Source: Acidobacteriaceae bacterium (lineage in GTDB: Bacteria > Acidobacteriota > Terriglobia > Bryobacterales > Bryobacteraceae). From it: a stretch of 5,911 bases of DNA. Below the pieces are notes generated by a model. That model saw only the letters and a list, made by a program, of their open reading frames with translations. It did not search any database and had not been told where the DNA came from. The stretch is from the NCBI GenBank assembly GCA_019246575.1, contig JAFAQG010000958.1, positions 1-5,911 on the forward strand. Reading direction: 5' to 3'. This document shows, one piece after another, positions 3 through 5,911 of the stretch; position 1 is the first letter of the stretch, and every line of letters begins with the position of its first letter. The position numbers and the translations under genes are program-made.

Positions 3-143
3 TTGGTCGCTTTCATTCAGAATGGACACGCTTTCGCTCGAGTGACGCACCGTCTCAGCGGAGGCATTTTACTGATTTTAATCACGTACGCGAAAACGGC
101 GGGGACAAAACGTCGCCGGCACTCTGGCGTCTCACTTCCATGA
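3..143 (+). CDS. C-terminal end of a probable membrane protein (partial, runs off left edge)
   Basis: This frame is open from the left edge to a TGA at 141-143 and gives 46 residues. In the middle is a hydrophobic run (GGILLILITY, about bases 60-89), followed by a basic tail (KRRRH). That pattern suits a last transmembrane helix with a positively charged cytoplasmic end. The TGA overlaps the ATG of the hydrolase at 140 as ATGA, the classic arrangement of translationally coupled genes in an operon, and the hydrolase has no clear Shine-Dalgarno of its own. I do not recognise the family; several small exporters end in this way. The doubt is that a second frame (starting at base 2) is also open across this stretch, so an open frame alone is weak evidence. 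The overlap and the hydrophobic segment are what support the call. Confidence 0.45.
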   Translation: MVAFIQNGHAFARVTHRLSGGILLILITYAKTAGTKRRRHSGVSLP

Positions 144-748
144 CACACCGAACCGGCGAGCGCCTCAAATTACTCGCAACCCGGAGTGCTGGAATCACCG
201 AAGGCGCCGAAGACCTTACGTTTGAGACGAGCGAGGGACCGCTGGGCGCGCGGTATCACTCGGCGGCCGCACCGACGCCGGCGCTGTTATGGGTATTCGG
301 GGCGGGCGGCGGGCTCGGAGGACCGGCGGGAGGGATGTACGAGCGTCTCGCGCGCCGGCTGGTCCCGTCGGCCGCATCTCTTCAGCTCGATTACAGACGT
401 CCGGGAGATCTTCCGTCCTGTGTTTCCGATGTTTTACTCGGAATCGAATATCTTGGTTCGCGTGGAAATGCCCGCGTAGTCCTGGTCGGGCACTCGTTTG
501 GCGGTGCGGTTGTCATCAACGCCGCAATTGCGACTCAAAAGGCGATCGGCGTGGCCGCGTTGAGCTCACAAACGGCCGGAGTGGGGGATGTGACGCGAAT
601 CAGTCCACGTCCGATCCTATTCGCGCATGGAGAGGATGACGAAGTGCTGCCCGTTCGCTGCTCGCTCGCGCTGTTCCGGCAAGCCCGGCACCCGAAGACT
701 CTGAAACTGTATCCGGGCTGCCGTCATGGGCTGGACGATTGCCGCTAG
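140..748 (+). CDS. Alpha/beta hydrolase, dienelactone-hydrolase/KANL3-Tex30-like, probably shortened by an in-frame amber codon
   Basis: A 202-residue cytoplasmic alpha/beta-hydrolase-fold protein with no signal peptide. A glycine-rich oxyanion-type loop (GAGGGLGGPAGG) follows the first core strand. The nucleophile elbow GHSFGG places the serine at residue 119. The acid is Asp167 in HGEDDEVLP and the catalytic histidine is His196 in CRHGLDD, so the Ser-Asp-His triad is complete. The substrate is unknown; relatives are annotated as dienelactone hydrolase-like or COG3571-type hydrolases. ATG 140 is the only start codon in this frame within the window, and it overlaps the preceding TGA as ATGA. 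The oddity is at the end: the TAG at 746-748 is followed in frame by QLDRDLQEWLTHVL and a TGA at 791-793, which looks like the usual C-terminal helix of this family (HGL, then a short acidic stretch, then a Leu-rich EWL helix). The annotated product therefore probably lacks about 14 residues. All catalytic residues precede the stop, so activity may survive. Confidence 0.85.
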   Translation: MTHRTGERLKLLATRSAGITEGAEDLTFETSEGPLGARYHSAAAPTPALLWVFGAGGGLGGPAGGMYERLARRLVPSAASLQLDYRRPGDLPSCVSDVLLGIEYLGSRGNARVVLVGHSFGGAVVINAAIATQKAIGVAALSSQTAGVGDVTRISPRPILFAHGEDDEVLPVRCSLALFRQARHPKTLKLYPGCRHGLDDCR

Positions 749-874: not shown

Positions 875-3800
875 TTATTGTTTTCGAAATGATGCGGGAA
901 GCGCTTCGCTGATGACATCCGGGAGGTCAAGCGCGGCCGCGCGATTCCACTCGGCGTGATATGCCTCGCCGCCCATAGTAGTTTTTGCGCGTTCGAGTGC
1001 CGCCTCACGTTGCGCGACGAGTGCGGGGGGCAACGCGTAGCCGTACGCGCCCCGAATCTTCGCGGCGGCACTCACCAGGAACACGGCGTTGGCATCGTTC
1101 CCCAGGTTTGCATTCATCAGAGCCAGCAGTTCGAGGGCTTCAGAGATCCCACGCGTATCGTCGACTCCTCGGGCCAGCATCATCGCCTCTTTCAGCCGGT
1201 TCGTCGCGCTCTCATAGTCTCCGGCTTGTACAGCTGCCCAGCCCAAGGTACGGAGCGAATCCGCGGAACACTTGTTGTCGACCAGCTTTCGGCGAATCTC
1301 GAGAGCAATACTCGCGCTGTTCTTTGCCTCTTGCAGTGGCCGCCCTGAAGCGATGTAAGCGCGTGCCAGCGAATCGAGCGCAAACGCACGTTCCCGATCG
1401 TTATGCGCCGCTTCGAACTGATTCAGCGCCTCGCGGAGGCGTGCGATGGCTGTTTCGTTATCGCCCCTCCCGAGCGCAATAAAGCCCAGATTGTAAGTGG
1501 CGACGGCCGCATTCCGGGGATTGCCATTCGCGACTTCGAGGGTGCGGCACCGTTCCTGCCGCTCCTGTGCCGTTTTGAAATCGCCCTTCATCATCGCTAC
1601 CAACCCGAGCCCGCTTAACGCGTCCGCCATTTCAACAGAGTCTTGGCGGGCTTCGGCGATATGCCAGCATTGCTCGAAGAAAGTTTCGGCGCCCGCGAAA
1701 TCTCCCATGCGGTACTTCAGCATGCCCGCGCCGCTCAACAAACGGCATTTTAGTTCGGGCGCAGACTCCGTACCGGGGATGGCGAGAACCTTGTTTGCCA
1801 AGCTGAGACCTTCCGTGTAGTACGCGCGGATTTCGAGAAACCGCCAAAGCCCAACCATGATGCGCAGCGCTATCTCAGGTAGCGTGGTGTCGCGCGCCCA
1901 CCCGATCGCCTGACGGAAGTTGTCCAACTCCGGCTGCAGGGCATCGAGAGTCTTACGCTGCTCCCCCGTCAGAAATTTAGGCGCGGCTTCTTCGGCGAGA
2001 CGAAGGAACCACCGGGCATGACGTTCCTGCTGCGACTGTATCTCGTCAAGTGTACGTTCTTGCTGCATACATTGGCGGATGGGATCGAGGAAACGAAAGC
2101 GCGATCTTCCGCCGGCTTCGCTGCGTACGAAAAGCGAGCTGTCTACCAGTTCTGACGTCAAATCTTTGACATCATTCGACTGAAGAGCCGGATCGCAGAC
2201 CGCGCCGGCAGCCTCAAGCGTCCATCCGCCCACGAACACCGACATGTCGCGCACAAATTGTTGCGAACGCGGCGCCAGCAGCCTATAGCTCCATTCAATG
2301 GCGGCGCTCAGGGTCTTCCAGTGGCTTAGATGGGACTCTTTGATCTGTTCGTTCAGCAATTGGGCCGTTTCATCGCTCATTTCGGCCGGACTCCTGATAG
2401 TGAGGCGCGCCGCTGCAATTTCAATGGCTAGCGGAATGCCTGCGAGCGCGGTGCAGATGCCGGCTACGTATTTTGCGTTACTGTCATCCAGGGCAAAGTC
2501 GGGACACCGTCGCTTGGCTCTCTGGATAAAGAGCTGTACCGCGCTGCTTTTGGCGATATCCGAGGCGCTCGCATCTGCGCTCGCCGGCACAGCAAGAGGG
2601 CTCACCGGATACACGGATTCGTATGCAGATCCCAGCACTCTCCGGCTGGTCACAAGAATTTTCAGCAACGAACATTCGCCCAGTATGGAGCCGGCCAGTT
2701 CCGAAACTGCTTCGGTCAGGTGTTCGCACGTGTCGAGTATTAGTAGATGCTTGCCTGAACGGAAATAAGCGAGCAGCGATTCATGAGGAGGATGTTTCGG
2801 GAGCTCCGGAACACCCAGTTCCTTGCCGATGCGCGAGGGCAGCAGATTTCTGTCCTCACGCTGTATCTGCAGGTCGGACAGCGGCACGAACCCGACTCCG
2901 CGCGAAAAGTGCGATTTCACTCTATTTGCGACTTCCACGGCGATTCTTGTCTTTCCGCAGCCGCCTGCGCCGAGGATTGTGATGAGGCGGTCCGCTGCCG
3001 AGTCCCCCGTAAGACGCGACGCGAGCTCTGCGATGTCCGCCTCCCGTCCGACTGTCTCATTGCCTAAGTCGGGTATTTTGTCGCGCCGCGGCCGGGGAAA
3101 CACGGTTTCCATCTGTTCCGCCAGGTAAGTCAGAATGCTCTCTACTGCACCGTGTTGTCCTTTGGGATACCAGATGGGAGTGATCGATAACTCGGCGAGT
3201 TCGTTCCTGCGCTTCTCGATTGAAGCTGCGCTTTGGTCCGGACTGCCTCCGTCCGGCTTCTCAACGATCGCAAAGTGCTGGATATGTTCGGAATATTGCT
3301 TGCTGATTTGACGAAGCGTCCGCATGGTCCGGTCCTGAGCCAGACTGCAGCCAACGAACAAGATGCAGCGGGATTTCAGAAGCAGTCCGAGGAGTTCAGG
3401 CAGCGGCCTGCTCATATCGATCGACTTGGGGTCGGAGTGACCATACGCTTTTTCGTATTCGAGTAATGTGAGGACGCGGTGATCAGGGTGTTCCCAGTCG
3501 CCGTGCAGTTTCAGAACAAAGGGTTGTCCCTGGTTCAGAGCTTCGACTGCGTACTGCGGGTCGCCTCCGCAGAAGCACCGAAGCTCAATCCCGTTCTGAC
3601 GAAAACAGGTCTCGAGTACGCGATCGAAGTTTGTCGTGACGACCCGGGCAGATGGGAACCGAGTAAGTTGGTCGACGGCTCCGCTCAGGCCTTTACTCGA
3701 AAGATTCGAATGTCCGAACGCCTTTGCCATTTTGCTCTGGAACACGCCGTATGGCAGTGCGTTAGTCAGATCGGACGCCGCTTCCTCATACTCGTTCGAT

Positions 3801-4024
3801 GCGAGCCGGGTGTTGATCTTATCCTGCAGTTGCGGCCGGTTGCCAACACAAGCTTTCAGAAATTCACCCCACAACGGGAAACCAAACGGTTTAGAGAGTC
3901 CTGCGCCGACGAAGGGGATGACAATGCGGTCGGGGTTCTTGCAGCGATCGACAAGTAAGGGCAATGAATCCTGGTTGTCGGGATCGTTGCCCAGCGTGTT
4001 CTGTATGTCAGCGTCGGAGATCAT
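875..4024 (-). CDS. SIR2-domain STAND ATPase with TPR repeats, putative NAD-depleting anti-phage sensor
   Basis: A 1049-residue three-part protein. Residues about 30-305 form a SIR2-like NADase domain: VGAGLSKPFGFPLW (39-52) is the NAD-binding motif, TTNFD (130-134) carries the key Asn132, KLHGD (172-176) the catalytic His174, and FVGCSLAQD (223-231) the late SIR2_2 motif. Residues about 324-650 are an NB-ARC/STAND ATPase of the COG3903 style: VGRE (325-328), Walker A GAGGCGKT (352-359), Walker B LLILD (Asp431) continuing TCEHL, the sensor-like TSRRVL (459-464), the GIPLAIEIAAARL motif (529-541), then a winged-helix region. Residues about 690-970 are helical TPR-like repeats (YRMGDFAGAE, LVAMMKGDFKTAQ, GRGDNETAI, AVQAGDYESA), followed by a tail typical of this ATPase family. 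By analogy with Avs5, DSR2 and ThsA, the TPR part may sense a trigger, the ATPase oligomerise, and the SIR2 domain hydrolyse NAD+ to abort infection; this is inference. No membrane segment is seen. GGAAG lies 7 bases before the ATG, and no in-frame start exists close upstream. The gene stands alone, divergent from ispG. Confidence 0.9.
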   Translation of the reverse strand: MISDADIQNTLGNDPDNQDSLPLLVDRCKNPDRIVIPFVGAGLSKPFGFPLWGEFLKACVGNRPQLQDKINTRLASNEYEEAASDLTNALPYGVFQSKMAKAFGHSNLSSKGLSGAVDQLTRFPSARVVTTNFDRVLETCFRQNGIELRCFCGGDPQYAVEALNQGQPFVLKLHGDWEHPDHRVLTLLEYEKAYGHSDPKSIDMSRPLPELLGLLLKSRCILFVGCSLAQDRTMRTLRQISKQYSEHIQHFAIVEKPDGGSPDQSAASIEKRRNELAELSITPIWYPKGQHGAVESILTYLAEQMETVFPRPRRDKIPDLGNETVGREADIAELASRLTGDSAADRLITILGAGGCGKTRIAVEVANRVKSHFSRGVGFVPLSDLQIQREDRNLLPSRIGKELGVPELPKHPPHESLLAYFRSGKHLLILDTCEHLTEAVSELAGSILGECSLLKILVTSRRVLGSAYESVYPVSPLAVPASADASASDIAKSSAVQLFIQRAKRRCPDFALDDSNAKYVAGICTALAGIPLAIEIAAARLTIRSPAEMSDETAQLLNEQIKESHLSHWKTLSAAIEWSYRLLAPRSQQFVRDMSVFVGGWTLEAAGAVCDPALQSNDVKDLTSELVDSSLFVRSEAGGRSRFRFLDPIRQCMQQERTLDEIQSQQERHARWFLRLAEEAAPKFLTGEQRKTLDALQPELDNFRQAIGWARDTTLPEIALRIMVGLWRFLEIRAYYTEGLSLANKVLAIPGTESAPELKCRLLSGAGMLKYRMGDFAGAETFFEQCWHIAEARQDSVEMADALSGLGLVAMMKGDFKTAQERQERCRTLEVANGNPRNAAVATYNLGFIALGRGDNETAIARLREALNQFEAAHNDRERAFALDSLARAYIASGRPLQEAKNSASIALEIRRKLVDNKCSADSLRTLGWAAVQAGDYESATNRLKEAMMLARGVDDTRGISEALELLALMNANLGNDANAVFLVSAAAKIRGAYGYALPPALVAQREAALERAKTTMGGEAYHAEWNRAAALDLPDVISEALPASFRKQ

Positions 4025-4351: not shown

Positions 4352-5596
4352 ATGGCTGCTTTGCCGCGCCGGAGATCGGTCGCTGTCGACGTGGGAGGAG
4401 TGAAAGTTGGCGGCGGGAATCCGATTGTCGTGCAGTCCATGACGAATACGGATACGGCGGACACGGCGTCGACGGTGAACCAAGCGATAGAGCTGGCGCG
4501 CGCCGGGTCGGAGCTGGTTCGGGTGACGGTAAATACCGAAGAAGCGGCGCAGGCTGTTCCGAGGATTGTCGACACTCTGCGTAGCTTCGGCGTAAATGTT
4601 CCGATTGTCGGCGACTTCCATTACAACGGCCACATTCTGCTGAAGAAGTATCCGGAATGCGCGCGTGCGTTAGCGAAGTACCGTATCAATCCGGGCAATG
4701 TGAACATCGGGCGCAAGCAGGACGATAATTTTCGGACGATGATCGAGGCCGCGATCGACTACGACCGGCCGGTGCGCATCGGCGTGAACTGGGGATCGCT
4801 CGATTCGGTTCTGCTGACGCGGATGATGGACGAGAATTCGAGAGCGCCCGAGCCGCTGGATGCGATGGAAGTGACGATGCGGGCGATTGTCGAAAGCGCA
4901 TTGCGCAGCGCGGAGGCGGCGGAGCGGTATGGCCTCGCTCACGACAAAATCATTTTGAGCGCGAAGGTCAGCAATGTGCAGGATCTGGTGCATGTGTACG
5001 AGATGCTGGCGGCGCGTTGCGATTATCCGCTGCATGTCGGGTTGACGGAAGCGGGATTGGGATCGAAGGGGATTGTCGCGACCACGGCGGCGCTTTCACT
5101 GTTACTGCAGCAAGGAATCGGGGATACGATTCGCGCGTCGCTGACACCGCTACCAAACGGCGATCGCACCGAAGAGGTCATCGTGTGCCAGCAGATTCTG
5201 CAAGCTTTGAATCTGCGCAGCTTCACGCCGCAGGTGGCGGCATGTCCGGGGTGTGGAAGGACGACCAGCACGTTTTTCCAGGACATGGCGGACCAGATTC
5301 AGACGTATCTGCGCGAGCAGATGCCGGTATGGCGGGAGAAGTACACGGGCGTCGAGGAGATGCGAGTTGCGGTGATGGGATGCGTGGTAAATGGGCCAGG
5401 CGAATCTAAACACGCCAACATCGGGATTTCGCTGCCGGGCACGTTTGAGAAGCCAGTTGCGCCCGTCTACGTGGACGGAAAACTCGCGACGACGTTGCGG
5501 GGCGACGGCATTGTTGCGGAGTTCCGTGCGATCCTGGACGACTACGTGGCGCAGCGGTACGGGGTAGTTGAGCCGGTTGCAGAGACGGTAGGGTAG
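4352..5596 (+). CDS. ispG: 4-hydroxy-3-methylbut-2-en-1-yl diphosphate synthase (IspG/GcpE)
   Basis: IspG is the cytoplasmic [4Fe-4S] enzyme that converts the cyclic diphosphate MEcPP to HMBPP, the second-to-last step of the MEP (non-mevalonate) isoprenoid pathway, taking electrons from flavodoxin or ferredoxin. The 414-residue product carries the family landmarks in order: [11 protein letters not shown] near the N-terminus, [42 protein letters not shown] and [10 protein letters not shown] in the TIM-barrel part. The cluster ligands are in the C-terminal part: Cys298 and Cys301 (ACPGCGRTT), Cys344 and Glu351 ([10 protein letters not shown]). The protein is longer than the E. coli enzyme (372 residues). 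Part of the difference is about 11 extra residues between the second and third cysteines, as in the longer bacterial subtype. The start is secure: a TAG lies directly before ATG 4352 in frame, and GGAGAGG (4337-4343) is a good ribosome site. The gene is divergent from the SIR2-STAND gene and convergent with the UPF0182 gene. Confidence 0.97.
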
Positions 5597-5614: not shown

Positions 5615-5911
5615 TCAGCGTTGAACCAGCGACTGAATTGCGTCTAATTCTTTGCCGGCGTCGGCCCACTTGCCTTGCGAGCTGAGTTCGCGATAGCGGC
5701 GCAGGTGATCGCGGATTTGCTGTAAAGTCTGGACTGCCTGATTCGAGGGCTGTTGGACAGAGGGAGCAGCTTGGGGTGCGCCGGCAGTCTGAGGGGGCGC
5801 AGGCTGGTTCGGCTGTGGTTGGGGCGGCGCTGTGCCTCCAAGCTCGGCAATCAGCTGTGACAACGCCTGCTCGTAGGTGTCCTGATACACAAGCCGGTTG
5901 CCCATGGCCAG
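5615..5911 (-). CDS. UPF0182 (COG1615) family protein, C-terminal end (partial, runs off right edge)
   Basis: Only the last 98 codons are in view. The frame is open through the right edge (it reads Leu-Ala before the Met-Gly of GNRLVYQDTYEQAL), so the internal ATG at 5905 is not the true start. The visible part has the conserved block GNRLVYQDTYEQALSQLI seen near the end of UPF0182 proteins. After it comes a Pro/Gln/Ala-rich linker of about 35 residues, then a terminal helical segment (QQIRDHLRRYRELSSQGKWA and on) typical of the family's last domain. Full-length members are large proteins of roughly 900-1000 residues with several N-terminal membrane helices and a long extracytoplasmic part; their function is unknown. 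The stop codon (TGA, 5615-5617) is 18 bases from the ispG stop on the opposite strand, so the two genes converge with almost no spacer. Confidence 0.8.
   Translation of the reverse strand: MAMGNRLVYQDTYEQALSQLIAELGGTAPPQPQPNQPAPPQTAGAPQAAPSVQQPSNQAVQTLQQIRDHLRRYRELSSQGKWADAGKELDAIQSLVQR

Follow-up and report, generated by a model that had tools for sequence, protein, structure and literature searches.

What would a bacterium do with a lone gene that joins a SIR2 head, an ATPase core of the STAND (signal transduction ATPases with numerous domains) class and tetratricopeptide repeats (TPR) in one chain? The question is raised by a 5,911-nucleotide stretch of contig JAFAQG010000958.1 (assembly GCA_019246575.1) from an Acidobacteriaceae bacterium, hereafter the window. 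An earlier reading of its letters alone, hereafter the original prediction, took the 1049-residue product of this gene for a single-gene anti-phage system that senses a phage product through its C-terminal repeats and depletes NAD+. The protein is here interpreted, with a probability of about 0.6, as a single-protein STAND receptor resembling the nucleotide-binding leucine-rich repeat receptors (NLRs), with a SIR2 NADase effector and abortive-infection defence as its likeliest role. The NADase-STAND mechanism itself is likely, while defence against invaders as its purpose is somewhat probable.

Domain architecture and catalytic residues

The gene is an open reading frame (ORF) on the minus strand of the window, starting with an ATG at position 4024 (Table 1) that has a Shine-Dalgarno-like GGAAG about 7 nt to its 5' side. 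Profile search bears out the predicted domain order, as Pfam recognises SIR2_2 (4e-26, residues 128-283), NB-ARC (3.1e-6, residues 328-580; 27.1 bits, curated cut-off 23.5) and TPR_12 (1.8e-18, three stretches), the first and last likewise above their curated cut-offs; this three-domain architecture is far beyond chance. The SIR2 NADase motifs VGAGLS, TTNFD (containing N132), KLHGD (containing H174) and FVGCSL start at residues 39, 130, 172 and 223, and the ATPase motifs GAGGCGKT (Walker A), LLILDTCEH (Walker B), TSRR and GIPLA at 352, 427, 459 and 529, all NADase and Walker motifs being intact as first read. The AlphaFold2 model has a mean predicted local distance difference test score (pLDDT) of 83.8 and a predicted TM-score of 0.64, with lower confidence (pLDDT 58-80) in blocks inside residues 121-250 of the SIR2 part. 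Separate modules, intact catalytic and nucleotide-binding residues, conservation in the family and a stand-alone gene are thus seen in the sequence and the model.

The head resembles the SIR2_2, ThsA and KomC NADases in profile and structure comparison. The catalytic pair named in the original prediction, N132 and H174, is matched in HMMER alignments with hand-counted positions by Asn 112 of ThsA (chain 6lhx) and His 146 of KomC, the residue altered in chain KomC(H146N) (9xvc); ThsA chain 8bto has an alanine at the position of N132. N132, H174 and D176 are invariant in all 20 aligned family members (the window protein, 18 of P0002-P0020 and P0099, with P0001 and P0004 left out), and D134 is aspartate in 19 and glutamate in one. 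In Avs5, which has the same TTNxD motif, N110A and D112A are reported to abolish immunity (PMC12931631). A SIR2_2 domain with a catalytic asparagine and histidine is what defines a SIR2-type NADase effector, and NAD+ hydrolysis is predicted on this basis.

The central part belongs to the AfsR/MalT/Apaf-1 type, as does the STAND-TPR unit as a whole. The match to AfsR covers residues 297-662 (1.5e-36), and the Walker motifs, the GLPLA-like motif and a winged helix characterise an NB-ARC STAND, or AP-ATPase, in which K358, D431, R461 and P531 are invariant in the same 20 sequences. The NCBIfam AfsR equivalog model gives 83.9 bits against a cut-off of 1430. Neither nSTAND3 (PF20720) nor NACHT (PF05729), the mark of NACHT defence proteins, matches the window protein at E up to 0.1; in the relative at locus L135, nSTAND3 reaches 24.3 bits, below its cut-off of 27.2, and NB-ARC scores better.

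Comparison with known systems

Avs5 is similar in having an N-terminal SIR2_2 head, a central STAND ATPase and C-terminal repeats in one chain, with the TTNxD motif; it differs in the nSTAND3 core described for it (PMC12931631), where the window protein has an NB-ARC core. The long regular TPR arm of the window protein is a further difference. The comparison with Avs5 made in the original prediction holds for the head, the presence of a STAND core and the repeats, and becomes an analogy on account of the STAND type, on which membership of Avs5 is rejected. No profile named Avs5 is among the 15 PADLOC matches, the presence of such a profile in the library being unchecked.

The C-terminal domain of ThsA (Thoeris) senses a nucleotide signal from a partner TIR protein, whereas residues 320-1049 of the window protein match NB-ARC and TPR and no nucleotide-sensing domain. 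For DSR2, which is not known to have a P-loop STAND core, the SIR2 part matches in structure comparison, and whole-chain alignments give root-mean-square deviations of 9.8-11.5 over 325-356 residues; the NCBIfam Dsr1 equivalog model scores 15.4 bits against a cut-off of 1400. The window protein is thus neither a ThsA nor a Dsr1. The STAND regulators AfsR, MalT and PH0952 differ from the window protein in having DNA-binding or other signalling parts in place of the SIR2 head, and the plant TIR-NLRs (Roq1, RPP1) and Apaf-1 differ from this bacterial protein, which has SIR2 for TIR and TPR for leucine-rich or WD40 repeats.

No description of a SIR2-NB-ARC-TPR family was found in the open-licence literature, preprints and most subscription papers lying outside that scope. 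Among the closest prior descriptions, with Avs5, is a TPR-GreA/B-PIN system, for which SIR2 is listed as one of 13 effectors (PMC8195603). That effectors are exchanged as modules on STAND proteins is already known (PMC10907252), and the window protein is thus a variant within a known kind of defence protein.

Conservation of the TPR arm

Mean pairwise identity among 19 family members is 0.48 both for the head and for residues 661-750, against 0.45 for NB-ARC, 0.43 for the TPR (751-995) and 0.39 for the winged-helix part; it drops to 0.27 over the final 54 residues, none of whose columns is conserved to 90%. In a shared alignment, TPR identity divided by STAND identity gives 0.95-1.07 in SIR2 pairs. 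With other heads the ratio mostly lies within 0.56-0.77, though close pairs reach 0.86 with kinase heads and 0.97 with cyclase heads (3 pairs). The pairs are non-independent, and a faster ATPase core would also yield such ratios. When clades of the chassis tree described below were compared within bands of STAND identity (separate pair alignments, excluding 13 SIR2-headed rows added to the tree later), TPR identity in the SIR2 clade was 0.53 (20 pairs) against 0.39 (40), 0.35 (6) and 0.40 (26) in control clades at 0.5-0.6, 0.58 (12 pairs) against 0.47 (60), 0.60 (64) and 0.42 (2) at 0.6-0.75, and 0.43 (88 pairs) against 0.44 (2), 0.35 (4) and 0.41 (8) at 0.4-0.5. The control clades were taken from the tree (support 0.74 for kinase A, 0.993 for kinase B and 0.87 for the mixed clade; none printed for SARP), and rows without a boundary were dropped (1 of 21 SIR2, 1 of 13 kinase A, 1 of 6 SARP). 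The arm except its tail is thus not fast-evolving and is about as conserved as the ATPase, a state that one kinase clade nearly matches.

A slow-evolving arm fits a conserved trigger, and the same NADase-STAND machine may accordingly respond to an endogenous or social signal (stress, contact or a peptide) and impose regulated dormancy or death that is not phage-specific. This alternative is unlikely. A conserved phage fold could also explain the slow arm; kinase clade B holds ratios of 0.90-0.92 at higher identity, so the signal is not unique to the SIR2 clade, which at STAND identity 0.4-0.5 is not above kinase clade B (the 2 pairs at 0.44) and exceeds the mixed clade (0.41) only slightly. 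The variable last 54 residues also speak against it, as does the mainly anti-phage role described for characterised bacterial NADase sirtuins (PMC12700824).

Chassis relatives and head exchange

The window protein has 523 relatives at E up to 0.001 in a protein search that scored 7992 candidates. Among the best 120 of these, 22 carry SIR2_2 (P0001-P0020, P0093 and P0099), 90 carry parts which we take, from their Pfam accessions, to be of kinase, cyclase, SARP or HTH (helix-turn-helix) class, and 8 carry others. An initial tree of the chassis, with 121 rows, puts 21 of 23 SIR2-headed rows into one clade (support 1.0); after the addition of 13 SIR2-headed rows with an alignable chassis from a head-only search, the main clade takes 31 of 36 (support 0.992), P0001 being absent from the tree. 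A second, distant SIR2-headed clade comprises P0099, P0131, P0146 and P0147 (support 0.931), and P0093 stands alone. SIR2 is thus found on the chassis in three separate places, among rows biased towards near relatives of the window protein, the seed of both searches.

The head-only search found 282 relatives, and in the best 120 the partners of the head include NACHT (5), WD40 (3), kinase (3), TIR-class (2), FGE-sulfatase (2), subtilisin (1) and metallophosphatase (1) parts, among others, several of these names being presumed from Pfam accessions. One head on many different C-termini is the pattern of an effector domain that is exchanged between proteins. Two of the chains (P0139 and P0178) join the SIR2 head to TIR-class domains, giving two possible NADases per chain, and five others (P0130, P0132, P0144, P0133 and P0126) join it to kinase, subtilisin-type protease or metallophosphatase parts.

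Since its chassis is shared with so many regulator-type proteins (90 of the best 120 by Pfam accession), the window protein could itself be a regulator in the manner of its cousins with kinase, cyclase and SARP heads; SIR2 would then tune gene expression, either by deacylating proteins or through ADP-ribosyl signalling. This is improbable, because the head matches the SIR2_2, ThsA and KomC NADases and recurs with unrelated C-termini as effectors do, while Pfam matched no DNA-binding domain in the window protein and no operon was seen.

Distribution and genomic context

The IspG encoded in the window is 80% identical to that of a genome designated G300, and 72-74% identical to those of five of ten acidobacterial metagenome-assembled genomes (40-58% in the other five). 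In a sample of the acidobacterial phylum, the SIR2 head is found in 6 of 396 genomes at E up to 1e-6 (best 1.4e-10), none of these matches, in frames of at most 549 residues, being the full-length protein. A sample of 257 genomes from the order of G300 has it in 17 at 1e-10, 11 of them below 1e-30, and the full SIR2-STAND-TPR protein only in G532 (locus L135, 40% identical); the full-length search scored at most three candidates per genome, for which the head-only repeat compensates. None of the 80 matches listed in a genome-contig scan starts before query residue 205, and the scan is thus no measure of how frequent the SIR2-headed form is. The distribution is patchy, more like defence than housekeeping, which also counts against an endogenous trigger. 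Rarity in the searched genomes would fit a decayed or inactive remnant, a highly improbable reading given the intact 1049-residue frame, the invariant motifs and relatives 99% (P0001) and 80% (P0002) identical.

The 11 SIR2-head loci in the order of G300 fall into five groups by mutual similarity. One is a SIR2-NACHT family from four genomes (L139 8837-11557, L153 6841-9420, L155 7295-9961 and L157 7096-9960), 40-48% identical over most of its length and with NACHT recognised by Pfam in L139 only. At L136 (6678-10057, minus) and L137 (7731-11430, plus), SIR2 and TPR are encoded in different but overlapping frames, through frameshift, assembly error or overlapping genes; the Pfam scan of L137 took the TPR frame.

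Searches of 72,556 plasmid records (325 with a match) and 50,697 phage records (3 with a match) yielded no place where 80% of the query was covered. PHROGs at 1e-5 and Rfam gave no family; of 13 matches in a viral fold library (E up to 0.001), most were repeat proteins, one was an ATPase-domain protein and none was named SIR2. Five loci on viral contigs (L081-L085) match the window protein in its SIR2 head alone, at 31-33% identity. A mobile or viral origin is rejected on the outcome of these searches.

As originally described, the gene is solitary, lying between a convergent hydrolase gene and a divergent ispG (Table 1). GC content is 0.579 for the SIR2-STAND-TPR gene, 0.600 for ispG and 0.631 for the hydrolase gene, differences that are uninformative, so that foreign composition is rejected.

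Table 1. Features of the 5,911-nucleotide window
Feature	Position	Strand	Remarks
SIR2/NB-ARC STAND/TPR protein, 1049 aa, single gene	875..4024	-	
SIR2 NADase-type head, residues 1-306, with N132 and H174	3107..4024	-	
NB-ARC/AP-ATPase STAND core and winged-helix part, residues ~320-660	2045..3067	-	
Helical TPR arm, residues ~661-1049	878..2044	-	Stop codon 875-877 excluded
Alpha/beta-hydrolase, convergent neighbour, outside the system	140..748	+	Pfam Hydrolase_4 6.4e-11
ispG (GcpE), divergent neighbour, outside the system	4352..5596	+	GcpE 7.5e-112; PRK00366 1e-136

A short Pro/Gln-rich ORF (5615-5905, minus) follows ispG and has no Pfam match at E up to 0.1. A conserved ispG hotspot is rejected, both the SIR2-STAND-TPR gene and the hydrolase gene being absent from all eight nearest ispG loci. 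In a related genome, a different SIR2_2 and TPR gene of 577 aa adjoins ispG (L130 9198-10931, plus), and the ispG flank perhaps accepts such genes, a weak hotspot idea. Across the 11 SIR2-head loci, mechanically picked neighbouring ORFs, with SIR2 genes and a TPR part set aside, share at 1e-5 one family of about 970-1,170 residues (L136, L154, L156 and, cut, L157) and otherwise a single 63-residue match. The original prediction would have been undermined by homologs lying consistently in conserved metabolic or regulatory operons; the few readable loci show none, the gene being absent from those eight ispG loci and the neighbours in G532 being different. The surroundings speak for a variable locus of a single gene and contain nothing that positively indicates a defence island.

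Proposed mechanism and its implications

Several findings weigh against a defence role. The nearest chassis relatives are regulator-type and not known defence proteins, and the TPR region is not hypervariable, which gives no hint of a rapid arms race there. Pfam matches in 4 of 12 scanned neighbour ORFs of the G532 copy are all ordinary (a metallo-beta-lactamase fold, an alanine-racemase-like/serine dehydratase, a glycosyltransferase and a beta-helix protein), some of the other eight being mechanically picked frames that may not be genes. Ten neighbours selected from six SIR2-head loci had no PADLOC match at 1e-5. With this result, the plasmid and phage searches and the slow evolution of most of the arm, the claim of phage sensing gained no direct support.

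The NLR-like NADase receptor is nevertheless preferred, and by analogy it would be best read as an NADase that oligomerises in response to a ligand, the counterpart of a plant TIR-NLR in which SIR2 has replaced TIR. At rest, we infer, an ADP-bound NB-ARC would keep the SIR2 heads apart. A trigger ligand, presumably from a phage, would bind the TPR arm and open the receptor, and ATP exchange at NB-ARC would lead to oligomerisation. The clustered heads would hydrolyse NAD+, and its depletion would end in growth arrest or cell death, most likely as abortive-infection defence. A bolder proposal, which is doubtful, is a distinct SIR2-headed resistosome family resembling the plant TIR-type NLRs, with the NADase head on a bacterial regulator/kinase chassis and a slow TPR arm that recognises a single conserved trigger, perhaps a peptide or a shared signal of cell damage, and not fast-changing phage proteins.

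If the mechanism is true, a STAND-TPR chassis of AfsR/MalT type that is common in bacteria, mostly regulator-headed among the relatives found here, would through a SIR2 head have become a suicide receptor, mirroring the plant TIR-NLR in bacteria. The conserved arm makes a trigger shared by all members testable, and such a trigger would point to a general danger signal.
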